DNA from: a virus
DNA: 23,931 nucleotides
Virus record (IMG/VR): IMGVR_UViG_3300022187_000236
Coordinates: 1-23,931 of that record
Direction: 5' to 3' (one strand)
A program made the translations under genes and the position numbers. Under the pieces are notes generated by a model. That model did no database searches. It was not told the DNA's origin and saw only the letters and a program-made list of their open reading frames with translations. Of this stretch, positions 3,830-12,490 are shown piece after piece; positions within the stretch are counted from its first letter, which is position 1; every line of letters starts with the position of its first letter.

Positions 3830-4993
3830 TCAGATAGTGCCGTCATCAGCAAGGAAGCTGTAAGCGGTGGTAACAAAGTCCTTGTTCAGGATCTCGAAAC
3901 CAGCGTACAGTTGCCAGATCAGGATGATAAAGCGGCTGAAATCATCGTTGTTGTTGATGAGTACCTGAGCGTTAGGACCACCGATACCCACACCAACGGA
4001 CTGAGGACCGAAGAAGAAACCTTGGGCAACCTCTTGAGAAGAGTAGTTGCTACTGTCAGTAAAGTCAGCGGTAACGTTCTTGGTCGGGAAGTTGGTTGAT
4101 TCGAAGAACTTAACACCTTCGAACTGAACACCAGTCGGCATCACAGGCTCACCAGCCAGGAAGTAACCCTGACCAGCCTGGGGACCCATGAAGAAGCTGG
4201 CGTTGTTAGGCATCATGGGGTTACCCATGTACATGCCTTGACCAGGTGCACCAGCGTAACGTGCGATCTCACGGAAGTCGCTATCACGACGCAGATGCAT
4301 CATGAAGGTGGGATCACAGATGCAGCGATACAGACCATCAGCGAAGGTGGGGACGTTGCGCTTACGCATGTCCTTCACAACTTCCAGAAGGTCAGTGCGA
4401 ACAGAGAACTGCTGCACTTGGTTAGCGTACTCAGTAGCGGTATAATCGATACGACCAGAGGAATCTTTGGTCTTACCACCAGCGAAGTAGTAACCACCTT
4501 GAGAAGAAGAAGCAGCACCGTTGGCTTCGGCTTTGGCGAGTTCGTCAATAAACACGCGATCACGCCAGCGGCGGTAGTCATCGAGCAGCGTTAGGCTACC
4601 GATGGACTGGTGGAACATGTTCAAGTTGCCGGTATCAAGCAGCATACGCTGAGCAGTAATCAGAGTCTCGCGGGCAATCTTGAAGGTAGAAGGTTGGGTC
4701 GGGTCACCCGGATCAGCGGGACCGGTGTATTCCTTCAGCACAACAAGTACCTTCTCTTTGGTGATGTTGCGGCTGTTGGCAGTACCGATCGTTTGATCAG
4801 CAATACGCTCACGGCTGTCCTTGGTACCAGGGGTTCCCCAGAACTTGTAGCGATCGAGCTGAACAGTTTGACCAGGCTGAGAAGTGAAGTCGTGAACCAC
4901 CACGGGCTCAACGGCCATTTCGCAAATATATGCGGGGTGAGGGCGATAAAGCTCCGCACCTAAAATCTTTGGAAAGTCAGTATCAAGAAACAC
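3830..4993 (-). CDS. Major capsid protein (HK97-fold type)
   Basis: The 387-aa protein has the character of HK97-fold capsid proteins, and I recall close relatives in uncultured marine and cyanophage genomes. It starts MFLDTDFPKILGAELYRPHP, has an N-arm with the QPGQTVQLDRYKFWG strand, a spine helix with the WRDRVFIDEL motif, and a P-domain/A-domain C-terminal half rich in Gly, Phe and Asn. It would form the icosahedral head shell. The start is GTG 4993, preceded by GGAGG with a 10-nt spacer, and a 105-nt AT-rich gap upstream may hold a promoter. Codon choice (many C-ending codons) and GC content look higher than in neighbouring hypothetical genes, consistent with high expression. Confidence 0.88.
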   Translation of the reverse strand: MFLDTDFPKILGAELYRPHPAYICEMAVEPVVVHDFTSQPGQTVQLDRYKFWGTPGTKDSRERIADQTIGTANSRNITKEKVLVVLKEYTGPADPGDPTQPSTFKIARETLITAQRMLLDTGNLNMFHQSIGSLTLLDDYRRWRDRVFIDELAKAEANGAASSSQGGYYFAGGKTKDSSGRIDYTATEYANQVQQFSVRTDLLEVVKDMRKRNVPTFADGLYRCICDPTFMMHLRRDSDFREIARYAGAPGQGMYMGNPMMPNNASFFMGPQAGQGYFLAGEPVMPTGVQFEGVKFFESTNFPTKNVTADFTDSSNYSSQEVAQGFFFGPQSVGVGIGGPNAQVLINNNDDFSRFIILIWQLYAGFEILNKDFVTTAYSFLADDGTI

Positions 4994-5098
4994 TTTCTTT
5001 TATCCTCCAGTGTCGCAGGAATTTCGTTTAATCGGATGAAAGATTCAGACCGGAGTCCTATCTATAAGAATTTTAGCAGTCTATAACTTTTTATAAAT
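4994..5098 (-). promoter_or_regulatory. AT-rich leader upstream of the capsid gene, possible promoter
   Basis: This is one of the larger gaps in the operon. On the coding strand it contains TTTATAAAAAGTTATAG and CTGCTAAAATTC, either of which could be a -10-like element, then ends in the GGAGG site of the capsid gene. No convincing -35 box is visible. A promoter here would fit the need for excess capsid protein, but this rests on gap length and AT content only. Confidence 0.3.
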
Positions 5099-5635
5099 CT
5101 ATCCGTATTGCAGGGTAGAAATAGACTGACGTGCACCAGGCATATTGCTAGATGAATATGACTCAGGATCAATACCTTGCTGGAAACCAGGCATACCCAT
5201 GGCACCTGGTACAGCACCAAGGGCAACACCACCAAGACCGGCAGCGGCAGCAGATGCTGGAACCATACCCGCAGCTAAACCTTTGCTGATATTGCGTTCA
5301 GCTTGAGGGCCAACATTCATTTGTTCCAATGCATTTACAACATCAGCAGCTTTGCCAACAGCTCCTGCACGCACTTTGGATCCCTCAGGAAGATTGCGTC
5401 CAACGTTTCCAATAACATTGCCAGCAGGAATTACTGCTTTTTCTTGAATGGCAGAAAGCAACTGAGGCGAATATTTACCGGCAAGACGTGCACCCAATAA
5501 ACCACCGGCTGCACCAAGGCCACCAAGACCTGCAGCTAAGCCAGCAGAACCAGGATCTTCACCTTGAGAAAGGGCATACCCACCGGTTGCTAAACCAGCA
5601 GCGGCAGGTACACCATATTTAAGAGCGCCACGCAT
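5099..5635 (-). CDS. Gly/Ala-rich hydrophobic protein, 178 aa, between scaffold and capsid genes
   Basis: Residues 8-22, 30-53 and about 119-148 are Gly/Ala/Leu-rich segments with glycine-zipper spacing (AAGLGGLGAAGGLLGARLAG). Such segments can insert into or associate with membranes. The central part (about 55-118) is more polar. The gene lies 4 nt downstream of the scaffold-like gene and just before the major capsid gene. It resembles in composition the Gly-rich proteins at 15245-18617, so it may be another internal or ejected virion protein. No family is recognised. Confidence 0.7.
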   Translation of the reverse strand: MRGALKYGVPAAAGLATGGYALSQGEDPGSAGLAAGLGGLGAAGGLLGARLAGKYSPQLLSAIQEKAVIPAGNVIGNVGRNLPEGSKVRAGAVGKAADVVNALEQMNVGPQAERNISKGLAAGMVPASAAAAGLGGVALGAVPGAMGMPGFQQGIDPESYSSSNMPGARQSISTLQYG

Positions 5636-5639
5636 GGGA

Positions 5640-6611
5640 TCACTCCATCACAAACAGTTTGTTCGCCATTACATCAGGTGTAGCCTGGTTGATAACGCGC
5701 CAGGCGTTCTGAGGATCACGCTCCATGGTTGACTTGAAGCTTTCCCAGAAGTTCTGAGGTTGCTGTGGTGCAGCTGCAGCAGGAGGAGCGGGGAATTGTC
5801 CCAGGCCAGGATTCACAGCTTGGGTTGGATAGCCAACAGTTTCAAGCTGAGCTTCGTTTTCATAAACAGGATACGGACCTTCAGGACCAAAGAACTTGAG
5901 AGTGTAATCACTCAGAACATCAGGGTTGGTAAGGATCTCGTTATAAGCCAGATTTTCCTGATGCTCATTAACAGCGAAGTTGGCATAACCTTGCAAGGTG
6001 TCAGTAGCTTGGCTGCCCCAAGCAAGGGCGCTATCAAGAACGCTTTCCAGGTTTAGAGCGTACTGATTTAGAATTGCCGGAGCTTCGGTCCCGTACGCGT
6101 CCACCACCATCCGACTTTCCGGACTCCACCCCAGTACTTCCGCTACGTCCGCTAAGGAGCTGACTGAGTAAGTTTGGGAAGAGTTGCTGGAGGATGTCTG
6201 GTTTGTTGACCAGGTCTGCGGAACCGATTGTGGCGTAGCTTGGACGCTCGGTTGTCCGTAATTCGCCGGGGTATACTGAGTCGGATTGACCTGTTGCGAT
6301 TGTTGACCCTGGAACGGGGATGGCACCGGGCTCCCCAGCAGATTGACCACTTTGTTGAATGCCGTCTCCCAGGGGTTGCTCTGGGGCGCCACCGGTTGGG
6401 ATTGGGGGGCGTACTGAGTAGGGTTTGATTGGTAACTGGTAGTTCCCTGTGGTGCTACTTGAGGCACCGCTTGAGGGTAACTGGTTCCCACTTGATACTG
6501 AACCGGAGCTTGGGCCACCTGCTGTTGAGGAGCTGGTGCGACGTAGCTGCTCGGAGCGACCGCCGGTGCTTGGCTCATCTGTGGGGTCGATTGGACGGTA
6601 GCGTCCTGCAT
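5640..6611 (-). CDS. Probable capsid scaffolding protein, 323 aa
   Basis: Residues 1-150 are Pro/Gln/Ser-rich with two copies of NPTQY[AT]P. From about residue 150 the protein becomes acidic and helical (SLADVAEVLGW, LNLESVLDSALAWG, NEHQENLAYNEIL) and it ends with a basic-acidic helix (NFWESFKSTMERD). A disordered arm plus helical domain, encoded between portal and major capsid, is the usual place and look of a scaffold. The start at ATG 6611 is well supported by AAAAGGAG 7 nt upstream. Its first 192 codons overlap the last 192 codons of the portal in the +1 frame. The scaffold role is inferred from order and composition. Confidence 0.65.
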   Translation of the reverse strand: MQDATVQSTPQMSQAPAVAPSSYVAPAPQQQVAQAPVQYQVGTSYPQAVPQVAPQGTTSYQSNPTQYAPQSQPVAPQSNPWETAFNKVVNLLGSPVPSPFQGQQSQQVNPTQYTPANYGQPSVQATPQSVPQTWSTNQTSSSNSSQTYSVSSLADVAEVLGWSPESRMVVDAYGTEAPAILNQYALNLESVLDSALAWGSQATDTLQGYANFAVNEHQENLAYNEILTNPDVLSDYTLKFFGPEGPYPVYENEAQLETVGYPTQAVNPGLGQFPAPPAAAAPQQPQNFWESFKSTMERDPQNAWRVINQATPDVMANKLFVME

Positions 6612-9630: not shown

Positions 9631-10004
9631 CGTAACAATTTTTCAATCATCCTATCAAGTTTAGTATTAATTTCCTTAAAATGATCATGCATCTGTTGAA
9701 TTTCTCTAAGAAAGTCAACTTTCAACACGTATTCAATTGGCATACGTTTGACCTGCTCTTCGACTTCGTGGAGTCTCATTTCTGAATCTCGTAAGCGCTC
9801 ATGAGCTTGTTTGACACGTTCGTGAGAGCGGGCCAATACTTTTGAAGCAACCCAGCCGCCGCCAGTAACGGAGCTGATTACGCAGGTCAAAACCAAAGCA
9901 ATGTACTCTGGTCCCACGGCAAATAAATCTTTTGTTACCTTTATTTTAAATCTTAGTAATCCACCTGAAGCTTGCCGCGTTTCATAAGACCATTTATTAA
10001 CCAA
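9627..10004 (-). CDS. Membrane-anchored coiled-coil protein (holin- or spanin-like candidate)
   Basis: Counting from TTG 10004, residues about 31-56 (EYIALVLTCVISSVTGGGWV) form one hydrophobic segment. Residues 57-125 form a heptad-rich, charged helix (SHERVKQAHERLRDSEMRLH) ending in LDRMIEKLLR. One membrane anchor plus a coiled coil beside the terminase gene recalls holins or spanin-type proteins, but no signature proves it. The start is uncertain. TTG 10004 overlaps terL by 52 nt and has no Shine-Dalgarno. GTG 9917 gives 96 aa beginning just before the membrane segment, with the nearest AAGG about 19 nt away. The stop overlaps the AbrB-like start by 4 nt. Confidence 0.6.
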   Translation of the reverse strand: MVNKWSYETRQASGGLLRFKIKVTKDLFAVGPEYIALVLTCVISSVTGGGWVASKVLARSHERVKQAHERLRDSEMRLHEVEEQVKRMPIEYVLKVDFLREIQQMHDHFKEINTKLDRMIEKLLR

Positions 10005-12490
10005 ACGAGAGCGTCAACGCAGTCGTCATGGGAACTTACGCCAAAATTTGTCATCTCTTCAAATAAAACAGTAAAGTTTCTGTAACGATTAAAAATAACC
10101 TTTCGATCCTCGAAAAGTCCCATCACTCCACGGAACCTGGCAAGTTTATCTGCACGGAATCCTTTGATCGCATGCCATACCAGGTTATATAAATTTTCAT
10201 TATTTAAACAGATTCTCTTGAAATCAGCTTCAAGTGAAGCCTGGTACGCAACAGCTTCTGAGTAGATGTCGCAGGTAGAGAAGGTCGGGAAGTAGTTGTC
10301 ATTCGCATCTTTACCAATAACGGACCAGTCGTATAGCAGTTCTTTTAAGGCATCAAGTTTCTCAAGATTGCCCATTGCTCGCATACGTCTGTAATCAATG
10401 ATGTGGATCTTATCGCCAATCCTTCCGCCAAGAACAAATACTGTGTAATCGTTTTTCTCTTTTGTACCAGCGGATAGATCCACTCCAACGCCAAGGGTAT
10501 CGAATTCAGTTGCGATCTCAGCCTTAACAAGCAGCTCTGGTGCCAGAGATAGCTCATTCTGCCTGACGATTTGATTCATGTACTGGAAAGAGAAAGCAAT
10601 AGGTGCTTGCCGTTTCTTTTCTTTCAAGTATTCCAGGGACCACATCTCAGGCCAGTAAGATTCCTCTTCACCTGTTTTCTCATTGTTTTGGATTGCTGAC
10701 AATACAAGCTGCATCCAATTGTTTTGCGGGCAGAAAGTTGTTGCGTGAATATCGTCATGCCTGAATCTTGTGCCAAGACATATTGCCCTACCACCTTCAA
10801 ACATTGTTGGAGAGATAACTGCATTCCAGTTATCCTGCATTGTTTTACGTATATCGGGGTTGCCAATATCTGCAGAGCTCTTGATCGGGTCGTCAATTAT
10901 ACAGTTACCTACATTTAAGCCGTTTGCAATAAAATTATGACTCATGTGATGTACTTCAAGATCATAAACATACTCCGCTCGATCGCTAAAGAACTCAACT
11001 CGGGAAATGGACTCAGCCTTCCAGCTTTGTCCGTTACTTGATGATGTGCCACATGGCACTGACGACACAATGTTATTAAATTTTGAGGGATATTGTTTGT
11101 CTTTTTGTGGTCGATATGATGAACACAAAGATTGGTTCGTAGGGAACCATTTTTTAACTTCTGTTTTTTCTCCTTTGTACCACAACCTACACAAGTTAAA
11201 TTGTCCCTTTGAAGAATCAAAGGGCGAATTTTTTTGAAATCGTTTGTCGAGCAACCGTGTTGATAATTGCTGTTTCCGCATCCCTTCATCTTTTTCGAAT
11301 GAAGTTTGTTGGCACAATCCCGTGAGCAACACTTGGTTGTGTGACTGATTGGCTTGAACGCCTTCTGACAAAACAAACATTTTTTCATTGAAAGTGTTTG
11401 CCTTGATGCCCCAGCACATTGACGGCTGCAGTGTATCGCGGGAAAGTTTTTGCTTAAATACTGAGATAAACGGCTGGACACTAGGGAGAATTTTTGGTTG
11501 CAAATTGGGCAAACTAGATTTACCAGAAATGACTGAGTGGTTTTGTAACAGTTTTCGCAAATCCGTTGTGTGTGTTTCTTTTGGTTTCCGCACGCAAGGC
11601 AAGACTTGATCTTCCAGCTTTCCGGATAGCTTGACAATGGCATCCCCTTTACTAAGATCTCCCGCCCTTTTTTGCCTTCCTTCTTTCGTAATAAAAGGGT
11701 GCTCGGGAGTTGCTGAAATACAACCTCCACTGTTTGTTGTAATTTCAACAATTCCTTTGGTATAACGCCTTGTAACTGCTCCCACTTTGCACCAATTAAT
11801 TTGATCTGTGATGTGGTTTCTTGTGGCAACACGGTAAGCCTCTGGATTTTTATAAATGGAAGCAATTGGAACTTGCCCTTGATCAGTATACACCAAAGTA
11901 TCGCCAGTAAAGCATAAATGGGATCGCTTAGAGGTAACTGAACCTTTCAGGCCTGCAGCGCAGAGAGTAAACTGTTCTTCACCTGTAGTATCAATTCCTG
12001 CAAACTTGTGATCAATAGACCAGTACTCATTACTTGTTACATTCTTGAGTAAGCGAACAGACGGAAACACGTTTTGATATTTTTTGCTATCAATAATACG
12101 TTTGATAGTTGCAGATTTAGATCTTGCAATATCAACTGTGTAAGACAAGTAAAGAATTTGAAGGGGTTTCTTTGCTGTTGTATGTACACCAATTGCCCAT
12201 GCAGTGAATAAACCCAACACGGTACTTTTGGCCGACCCCCTGGGACCGAGTAGATCAATATTCGGTCCAGCAATTTTTACAAGACAATCAGTATCTTCGT
12301 TTGTTACTAATTGCTTATGCCATTCTCTATGGTGATTTGCTGGTGGCTTATCCGCTACGTATTCACAAAAAAAACCAAAGTCTTCTCTTGCACGCTCCAG
12401 GAGGTCTTCATTCTTGCTTTTGCGGATCTTGTGCTTTTGAATAGCAGCCTTTGCATTTCGCCTGTAAGCAAGATGAAGGTGAGAAGGCAC
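9953..12490 (-). CDS. terL: Terminase large subunit interrupted by an intein
   Basis: The 845-aa precursor is the packaging ATPase/nuclease. Walker A is GPRGSAKST (82-90). Walker B is CIIDD (530-534), directly after the intein; coupling-type GTRFRHDD is at 573-580. The RuvC-like nuclease follows, with DLSAG (671), a central acidic cluster near DIYSE (741-745) and HDDCVDAL (821-828). Removing residues 193-529 leaves about 508 aa, a normal TerL length, and joins SHL to CIIDDP. The start is GTG 12490 with no clear Shine-Dalgarno and no in-frame ATG nearby. The gene lies after TerS and three small ORFs and before portal, scaffold and capsid. The protein must splice to be active because Walker A and Walker B are on different exteins. 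Confidence 0.93.
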   Translation of the reverse strand: MPSHLHLAYRRNAKAAIQKHKIRKSKNEDLLERAREDFGFFCEYVADKPPANHHREWHKQLVTNEDTDCLVKIAGPNIDLLGPRGSAKSTVLGLFTAWAIGVHTTAKKPLQILYLSYTVDIARSKSATIKRIIDSKKYQNVFPSVRLLKNVTSNEYWSIDHKFAGIDTTGEEQFTLCAAGLKGSVTSKRSHLCFTGDTLVYTDQGQVPIASIYKNPEAYRVATRNHITDQINWCKVGAVTRRYTKGIVEITTNSGGCISATPEHPFITKEGRQKRAGDLSKGDAIVKLSGKLEDQVLPCVRKPKETHTTDLRKLLQNHSVISGKSSLPNLQPKILPSVQPFISVFKQKLSRDTLQPSMCWGIKANTFNEKMFVLSEGVQANQSHNQVLLTGLCQQTSFEKDEGMRKQQLSTRLLDKRFQKNSPFDSSKGQFNLCRLWYKGEKTEVKKWFPTNQSLCSSYRPQKDKQYPSKFNNIVSSVPCGTSSSNGQSWKAESISRVEFFSDRAEYVYDLEVHHMSHNFIANGLNVGNCIIDDPIKSSADIGNPDIRKTMQDNWNAVISPTMFEGGRAICLGTRFRHDDIHATTFCPQNNWMQLVLSAIQNNEKTGEEESYWPEMWSLEYLKEKKRQAPIAFSFQYMNQIVRQNELSLAPELLVKAEIATEFDTLGVGVDLSAGTKEKNDYTVFVLGGRIGDKIHIIDYRRMRAMGNLEKLDALKELLYDWSVIGKDANDNYFPTFSTCDIYSEAVAYQASLEADFKRICLNNENLYNLVWHAIKGFRADKLARFRGVMGLFEDRKVIFNRYRNFTVLFEEMTNFGVSSHDDCVDALVWLINGLMKRGKLQVDY
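10904..11914 (-). mobile_element. Intein within TerL, 337 aa
   Basis: The intein is TerL residues 193-529. Block A is CFTGDTLVYT (Cys1 at 193), block B is SATPEHPFIT (about 259-268, Thr and His present), block F is YVYDLEVHHMSHNF (507-520) and block G is FIANGLNVGN (520-529), followed by Cys+1 at 530. Cys1, block B Thr/His, terminal Asn and Cys+1 are all present, so splicing is plausible. The penultimate residue is Gly instead of the usual His. Insertion is immediately before Walker B, a highly conserved homing site. The in-frame segment between blocks B and F has no homing-endonuclease signature and is Ser/Gln/Lys/Asn-rich. The endonuclease is encoded across the same bases in another frame. 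Confidence 0.9.
10942..11643 (-). CDS. HNH homing endonuclease nested in the intein in the +1 frame
   Basis: From ATG 11643 this frame encodes 233 aa. Zinc-finger-like Cys pairs recur: CLACGN/CENC (15-32), CPICNQ/CSRQC (45-76), CLFCQK/CCSRDC (89-110). An HNH domain follows: CVGC (151-154), LCVHHIDHKKTNNIPQNLI (172-190) and CRQCHVAHH (193-201), supplying the His-His, Asn and His catalytic residues plus the zinc site. HNH enzymes cut DNA and drive homing. The gene lies within TerL codons 283-517, exactly where an intein endonuclease domain belongs, but offset by one base. A GGAG lies 15 nt upstream of the ATG and an AGGGG abuts it. The frame is also open upstream to TTG 11865, but that part merely re-reads intein blocks A/B. 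Expression is unproven. Confidence 0.85.
   Translation of the reverse strand: MPLSSYPESWKIKSCLACGNQKKHTQRICENCYKTTQSFLVNLVCPICNQKFSLVSSRLSQYLSKNFPAIHCSRQCAGASRQTLSMKKCLFCQKAFKPISHTTKCCSRDCANKLHSKKMKGCGNSNYQHGCSTNDFKKIRPLILQRDNLTCVGCGTKEKKQKLKNGSLRTNLCVHHIDHKKTNNIPQNLITLCRQCHVAHHQVTDKAGRLSPFPELSSLAIERSMFMILKYIT

Follow-up and report, generated by a model that had tools for sequence, protein, structure and literature searches.

A putative HNH homing endonuclease encoded in the +1 frame of a terminase intein in cyanophages and other phages

The DNA analysed here, referred to as the window, comprises positions 1 to 23,931 (23,931 nt) of the viral record IMGVR_UViG_3300022187_000236. Its terminase large subunit (TerL) gene very likely contains a mobile intein whose homing endonuclease is encoded outside the intein polypeptide, by a separate gene read from the same DNA in the +1 frame; splicing, nuclease expression and cleavage are inferred. 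In the usual picture, the homing nuclease of an intein is either an in-frame domain or a free-standing protein encoded between two split halves. In this TerL gene, a single stretch of DNA is read in two frames, one for a splicing domain and the other for a nuclease, and selection on each is measurable. For the nuclease to mutate or decay without loss of splicing, the changes must leave the TerL frame open, so the homing cycle can be read in the DNA itself.

Results and discussion

The TerL intein

All features of the window described below lie on the minus strand. The TerL precursor (9953-12490; 845 codons, GTG start) matches Terminase_6C (4.8e-11), and its frame is free of stops throughout. 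Within it, an intein of 337 codons (10904-11914; precursor codons 193-529) separates the N-extein (codons 1-192; 11915-12490) from the C-extein (9953-10903), which begins with the Cys of the Walker B motif CIIDDP, so that the insertion site lies immediately before Walker B. The intein runs from C1 at 11914 to N337 at 10904. For comparison, 35 full copies were read, the window included, from the isolated phage S-EIVl and IMG/VR contigs; 17 of them, below 97% identity, served as representatives.

The insert can be assigned to the class 1 inteins by its motifs and Hint fold, with splicing activity inferred. The Pfam model Intein_splicing matches at 3.7e-14 across the central gap, and the NCBIfam models of the intein N-terminal and C-terminal regions both match. 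In the alignment, C1 (the block A nucleophile) and T69 and H72 (block B TxxH) are invariant, and N337 is followed by Cys at +1 in 17/17 representatives. The penultimate His of block G is absent, with G, L or S preceding the terminal Asn in the copies examined; some active inteins are known to lack this residue, hence its absence is not decisive. Structure prediction of the TerL-frame product gave two confident Hint halves around a disordered centre: an N-terminal half (residues 1-98; 11621-11914; pLDDT 75-91) with Cys1 and the block B sequence TPEH, and a C-terminal half (residues 294-337; 10904-11035) with blocks F and G. The intervening filler (residues 99-293; 11036-11620; pLDDT 26-41) is stop-free, poorly conserved and predicted to be disordered. 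A Foldseek search with this model recovered mini-inteins, including those of RadA, DnaB and RecA. The first-pass annotation had reported blocks A, B, F and G in the TerL frame and only filler in its endonuclease slot, and both claims held.

An HNH nuclease in the +1 frame

Over most of the same DNA, the +1 frame encodes an HNH protein. Drawn from the candidate start TTG29 (11829), which is not settled, the reading frame spans 10942-11829 (295 aa) and remains open until a stop at intein codon 324 (10942-10944). Its HNH motif (11041-11193) reads CxxC ... HHIDH ... N ... CRQCHVAHH, and is preceded by a region of paired cysteines resembling a zinc ribbon (11314-11601), which matches DZR_2 at 0.00099, below that model's cut-off. 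The HNH and Cys residues are invariant. In profile searches, the product was recognised by Pfam HNH (8.6e-5) and by PHROG HNH families (up to 1.7e-15). Upstream, intein codons 39-98 (11620-11799), which lie over the N-terminal Hint half, encode a further domain with the motif LIGAxWxQL...QLPSTLSLR...EILVxG and a pLDDT of about 81-92.

The predicted structure of the +1 product has a mean pLDDT of 79, with values of about 81-94 over residues 11-120, the overprinted N-terminal domain included; the pTM of 0.49 leaves the relative placement of the domains uncertain. Foldseek returned only weak matches to HNH folds (best E 2e-3), and searching PDB sequences with the HNH profile gave no match. On its conserved catalytic motif, we regard the product as an HNH homing endonuclease; that it cuts the empty allele site-specifically is inferred from the distribution and the recombination pattern described below.

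The arrangement recurs in independent genomes

The same arrangement, without any indel, was found in S-EIVl, an isolated freshwater Synechococcus phage (996 matched bases over 996, with about 75% identity in the aligned pieces), whose record annotates TerL only. Scanning IMG/VR with the +1 protein gave 38 HNH loci, all in phase +1 wherever the TerL flank was readable, and with an insert of 1011 nt at these readable loci except for two of 633 nt. Phase and length are also unchanged at loci whose TerL extein shares as little as 48-53% identity with that of the window. The contigs bearing the insert come from many unrelated samples, with 57-75% DNA identity. All 35 full copies measure 1011 nt and have no stop in the TerL frame and 21-29 stops in the +2 frame, and a nonsense codon interrupts the +1 frame in only one of them. 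A scan of bacterial genomes with the HNH profile yielded just three matches, all distant.

Selection acts on both frames

The intein DNA is under dual-frame selection: the TerL frame is kept open and the +1 nuclease is under purifying selection. When the +1 (nuclease) codons of the 17 representatives were shuffled synonymously (2000 shuffles), 11.5-18.8 TerL-frame stops per copy were expected, and the lowest shuffle still gave 4-9, versus none observed in any of the 17. At the wobble positions where a T would create a TerL-frame stop, T occurs at 0 of 642, compared with 1082 of 2115 elsewhere.

Outside the nuclease, divergence at TerL-frame fourfold sites is high: the C-extein has 0.61, and the intein ends have 0.63 (codons 1-17) and 0.70 (codons 322-337). 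Across the nuclease it is low (0.17 in codons 18-92, 0.15 in 93-290 and 0.14 in 291-318). Divergence drops from intein codons 37-42 onward, and coding constraint on the +1 frame sets in at codon ~37-39 (precursor codon ~230). Accordingly, the +1-frame pN/pS is 0.94 before codon 37 and falls to 0.46 in the N-terminal overlap, 0.37 in the HNH core and 0.35 in the C-terminal overlap, while in these nuclease regions the TerL-frame values are 1.0-1.4 (1.16 in the HNH core). Since the constraint starts near codon 37 rather than 93, the nuclease is overprinted on both halves of the splicing domain, covering most of the N-terminal half and part of the C-terminal one. Of the first-pass claims, that of an HNH enzyme encoded out of frame within the intein held on motif, profile and 35-copy evidence, as did the claim that both frames must avoid stops; the restriction of the enzyme to the central slot (precursor codons 283-517) failed on the 5' side.

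Homologous inteins in Gordonia and Streptomyces elements

The same Walker B position is also occupied by TerL inteins in gp5 of Gordonia phage Clown (L086:1817-4576) and in Streptomyces plasmids and related IMG/VR contigs, among them plasmid NZ_CP108353 of Streptomyces sp. NBC_01353 (L133:2380-5094); these inteins, too, have an HNH in the +1 frame. Their nuclease is homologous to the cyanophage HNH (E 1e-37 in a profile comparison). The seven Streptomyces-type copies are all in phase +1 and have in common an ATG, at intein codon 53, that lies just ahead of the constrained region: fourfold divergence (n=7) amounts to 0.30-0.54 up to codon 60, beyond which it is mostly below 0.15. These copies constitute an independent replicate of the dual-frame pattern.

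Standard annotation misses such nucleases. As in S-EIVl, gp5 of Clown is annotated as a terminase only, and in the gene table of NZ_CP108353 the place of a single TerL is taken by an HNH and a 'hypothetical' piece.

Expression of the nuclease

Internal initiation is our inference for how the nuclease is produced; which codon serves as its start is unsettled, and +1 frameshifting is not ruled out. The candidate starts in the cyanophage set are GTG28, TTG29 and TTG39. TTG29 occurs in 16 of the 17 representatives, and so does TTG39, which is TTA in the window; every representative has at least one of the two. The cyanophage set has no conserved Shine-Dalgarno site, and no sigma-70-like promoter was found along the coding strand. 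A start at the conserved TTG93 was considered and rejected: constraint on synonymous sites is already present from codon ~37, codon 93 is TTA in two representatives, and the N-terminal part upstream of it is predicted to fold.

Proposed mechanism and alternative explanations

Under the proposed mechanism, the TerL frame would be translated through the insert, the Hint halves would fold around the disordered loop and the intein would excise itself, restoring TerL; this step is inferred from sequence and structure prediction. Ribosomes would also start internally on the same mRNA, at a weak codon in the N-terminal splicing half, yielding an HNH nuclease of approximately 285-295 aa. In co-infected cells, this nuclease may then cut intein-less TerL genes at Walker B, and repair would copy the whole 1011-nt element, as inferred from the distribution. 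TerL depends on splicing, so no mutation may introduce a stop into either frame, a requirement that accounts for the fixed insert length and the absence of stops.

Among the alternatives, programmed +1 ribosomal frameshifting survives best; it would replace internal initiation and produce a fusion of the TerL N-terminal part, the N-terminal Hint half and HNH. The abrupt onset of +1 constraint at codon ~37-39 in the cyanophages and the TTA, not TTG, at codon 39 of the window speak for it. Against it stand the ATG shared by the Streptomyces copies just ahead of their constraint and the presence of TTG29 or TTG39 in every cyanophage representative. We consider frameshifting unlikely, but cannot exclude it.

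A second alternative is that the HNH gene is a fossil, dead and with its frame surviving by chance or shared descent. Dead copies do exist, as described below. Nevertheless, the +1 pN/pS of the core, the invariant HNH and Cys residues and the depressed synonymous change across lineages indicate continued purifying selection, which makes this reading very improbable.

The insert could also be an RNA-level element that harbours an HNH reading frame, such as a group I or II intron; phage introns often encode HNH endonucleases, and a cyanophage is among the examples (PMC3428280). This is practically ruled out: an Rfam search detected no group I or II intron, its sole match being a snoRNA model at chance level (E 0.37), the intein motifs and fold are complete, and an intron would not require an open TerL frame, yet stops are avoided.

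Finally, canonical inteins, such as that of the KLEP7 RNA ligase, do have their endonuclease in frame, and the HNH could be such a domain displaced by two sequencing or assembly indels. This is refuted by independent genomes, since 35 copies, one of them from an isolate, share the phase, phase and length recur in contigs of such low DNA identity, and TerL-frame stops are strictly avoided.

Sequencing error is thus excluded as the source of the HNH frame in the TerL intein. The first-pass annotation had named two outcomes that would refute its reading, namely relatives with the HNH in frame with the intein and homologues with a +1 frame riddled with stops; neither appeared. On the origin of the arrangement, it had proposed either a fused endonuclease moved out of frame or an HNH gene that invaded a mini-intein. 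The former is weakened as a recent event, because the same-phase family spans several phage groups, and the latter is neither supported nor refuted by these data.

Mobility and decay

The intein is patchily distributed and has been transferred between TerL lineages. In a scan of TerL genes, nearly all loci lacked it, and their exteins were joined exactly, with 0 nt between them. The HNH tree strongly supports a position of one contig's copy (L096) outside its TerL clade, a move across two TerL families, albeit on a long branch. Cleavage of empty alleles is inferred.

The TerL extein of the window is about 99% identical in protein to that of an intein-less relative (L009). Their DNA is identical from ~60 to 480 nt left of the intein site and approximately 6% different to the right of it. 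At ~11915-11975 of the window, at the left edge of the intein, identity changes sharply to ~6% divergence, possibly marking a boundary of co-conversion or recombination. A recombination break beside the insert would fit homing, yet it could also reflect ordinary phage mosaicism.

At the +1 splice residue, many intein-less genes carry Val, whereas the intein-bearing representatives have Cys. In the TerL scan, this applied to most intein-less relatives, which are perhaps unable to host the intein.

Three loci document loss of the nuclease. In L100 (insert at 4724-5734), the +1 nuclease has a nonsense codon at intein codon 151 and the TerL frame remains open. The two 633-nt inteins (L119:988-1620 and L120:4685-5317) have lost exactly 126 nuclease codons and kept the TerL frame; they appear to represent decay toward a mini-intein.

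Relationship to known systems

The closest published case is the ShiLan-type hidden HNH in methylases of actinobacteriophages (Arsenault, Gosselin and Gogarten 2025, PMC11855218), and a further phage with an out-of-frame HNH insert in a methylase and no splicing domain is reported in PMC12613952. The ShiLan-type inserts and the TerL intein share an out-of-frame HNH, an open host frame and a patchy distribution. The authors of PMC11855218, however, found no self-splicing domain in the methylase insert, whereas in TerL a complete intein surrounds the nuclease, which overprints it. Over 125 residues, the Clown nuclease shares 35% identity with the insert region of the methylases in two Mycobacterium phages, Totinger and Mantra, the latter named in PMC11855218.

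Like canonical bifunctional inteins, the TerL intein is mobile and patchy, and its Hint domain is interrupted at the usual endonuclease slot; unlike them, it has disordered filler in that slot and a nuclease outside the intein polypeptide, in the +1 frame of every full copy. In the 'fractured genes' of Dassa et al. 2009, the intein is reported to be split, its halves flanking a free-standing endonuclease. Such systems, for example the RNR of Yersinia phage TG1, likewise have a separate nuclease reading frame between intein halves, but the TerL reading frame is continuous, with splicing inferred to occur in cis, and its nuclease overlaps the halves rather than separating them. The HNH genes of group I introns (e.g. 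I-PfoP3I, PMC3428280) are similarly nested in a self-splicing element, although splicing there takes place at the RNA level and needs no open host frame.

Out-of-frame HNH inserts without a splicing domain were, therefore, already known, and what appears new is a nuclease overprinted on a continuous intein. We found no report of such a gene in the literature searched, which did not cover a preprint by Gosselin, Arsenault and Gogarten on 'non-canonical architecture' (bioRxiv 10.1101/2025.01.02.630785), cited by PMC11855218 for overlapping frames in actinobacteriophages. By its title, that work concerns actinobacteriophages, not cyanophages, and it may already describe related, Clown-like cases. 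'Non-canonical inteins' (Gorbalenya 1998) is reportedly also among the most relevant prior papers. As naturally overlapping gene pairs present in several host groups, these inteins could serve to test the origin of overlaps, the use of internal starts and the spread of nucleases.

Overprinting in another nuclease family

A different nuclease family shows a comparable arrangement. The helicase gp40 of Xanthomonas phage FoX3 (L129:2680-5046) contains an intein (5e-11), whose +2 frame encodes a LAGLIDADG nuclease over codons 130-393 (Pfam 1e-21). No second copy of this helicase intein was found for a selection test. The overprinted LAGLIDADG probably has an independent origin. In a bolder reading, which we consider likely, overprinted nucleases form a recurrent third intein architecture, besides the in-frame and the split or free-standing ones, with more than one origin (HNH in the +1 frame of TerL, LAGLIDADG in the +2 frame of a helicase); the N-terminal domain of the TerL-intein nuclease would be a folded domain lying on top of the Hint fold and kept for a long time by dual-frame selection.

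The free-standing arrangement, which contrasts with that of the TerL intein, was observed in Yersinia phage TG1 (L127:1708-5355), Campylobacter phage WX1 (L125) and Listeria phage LIS04 (L126), in which genes are split by intein halves; a separate reading frame lies between the halves and bears an endonuclease annotation in TG1 (HNH) and LIS04.
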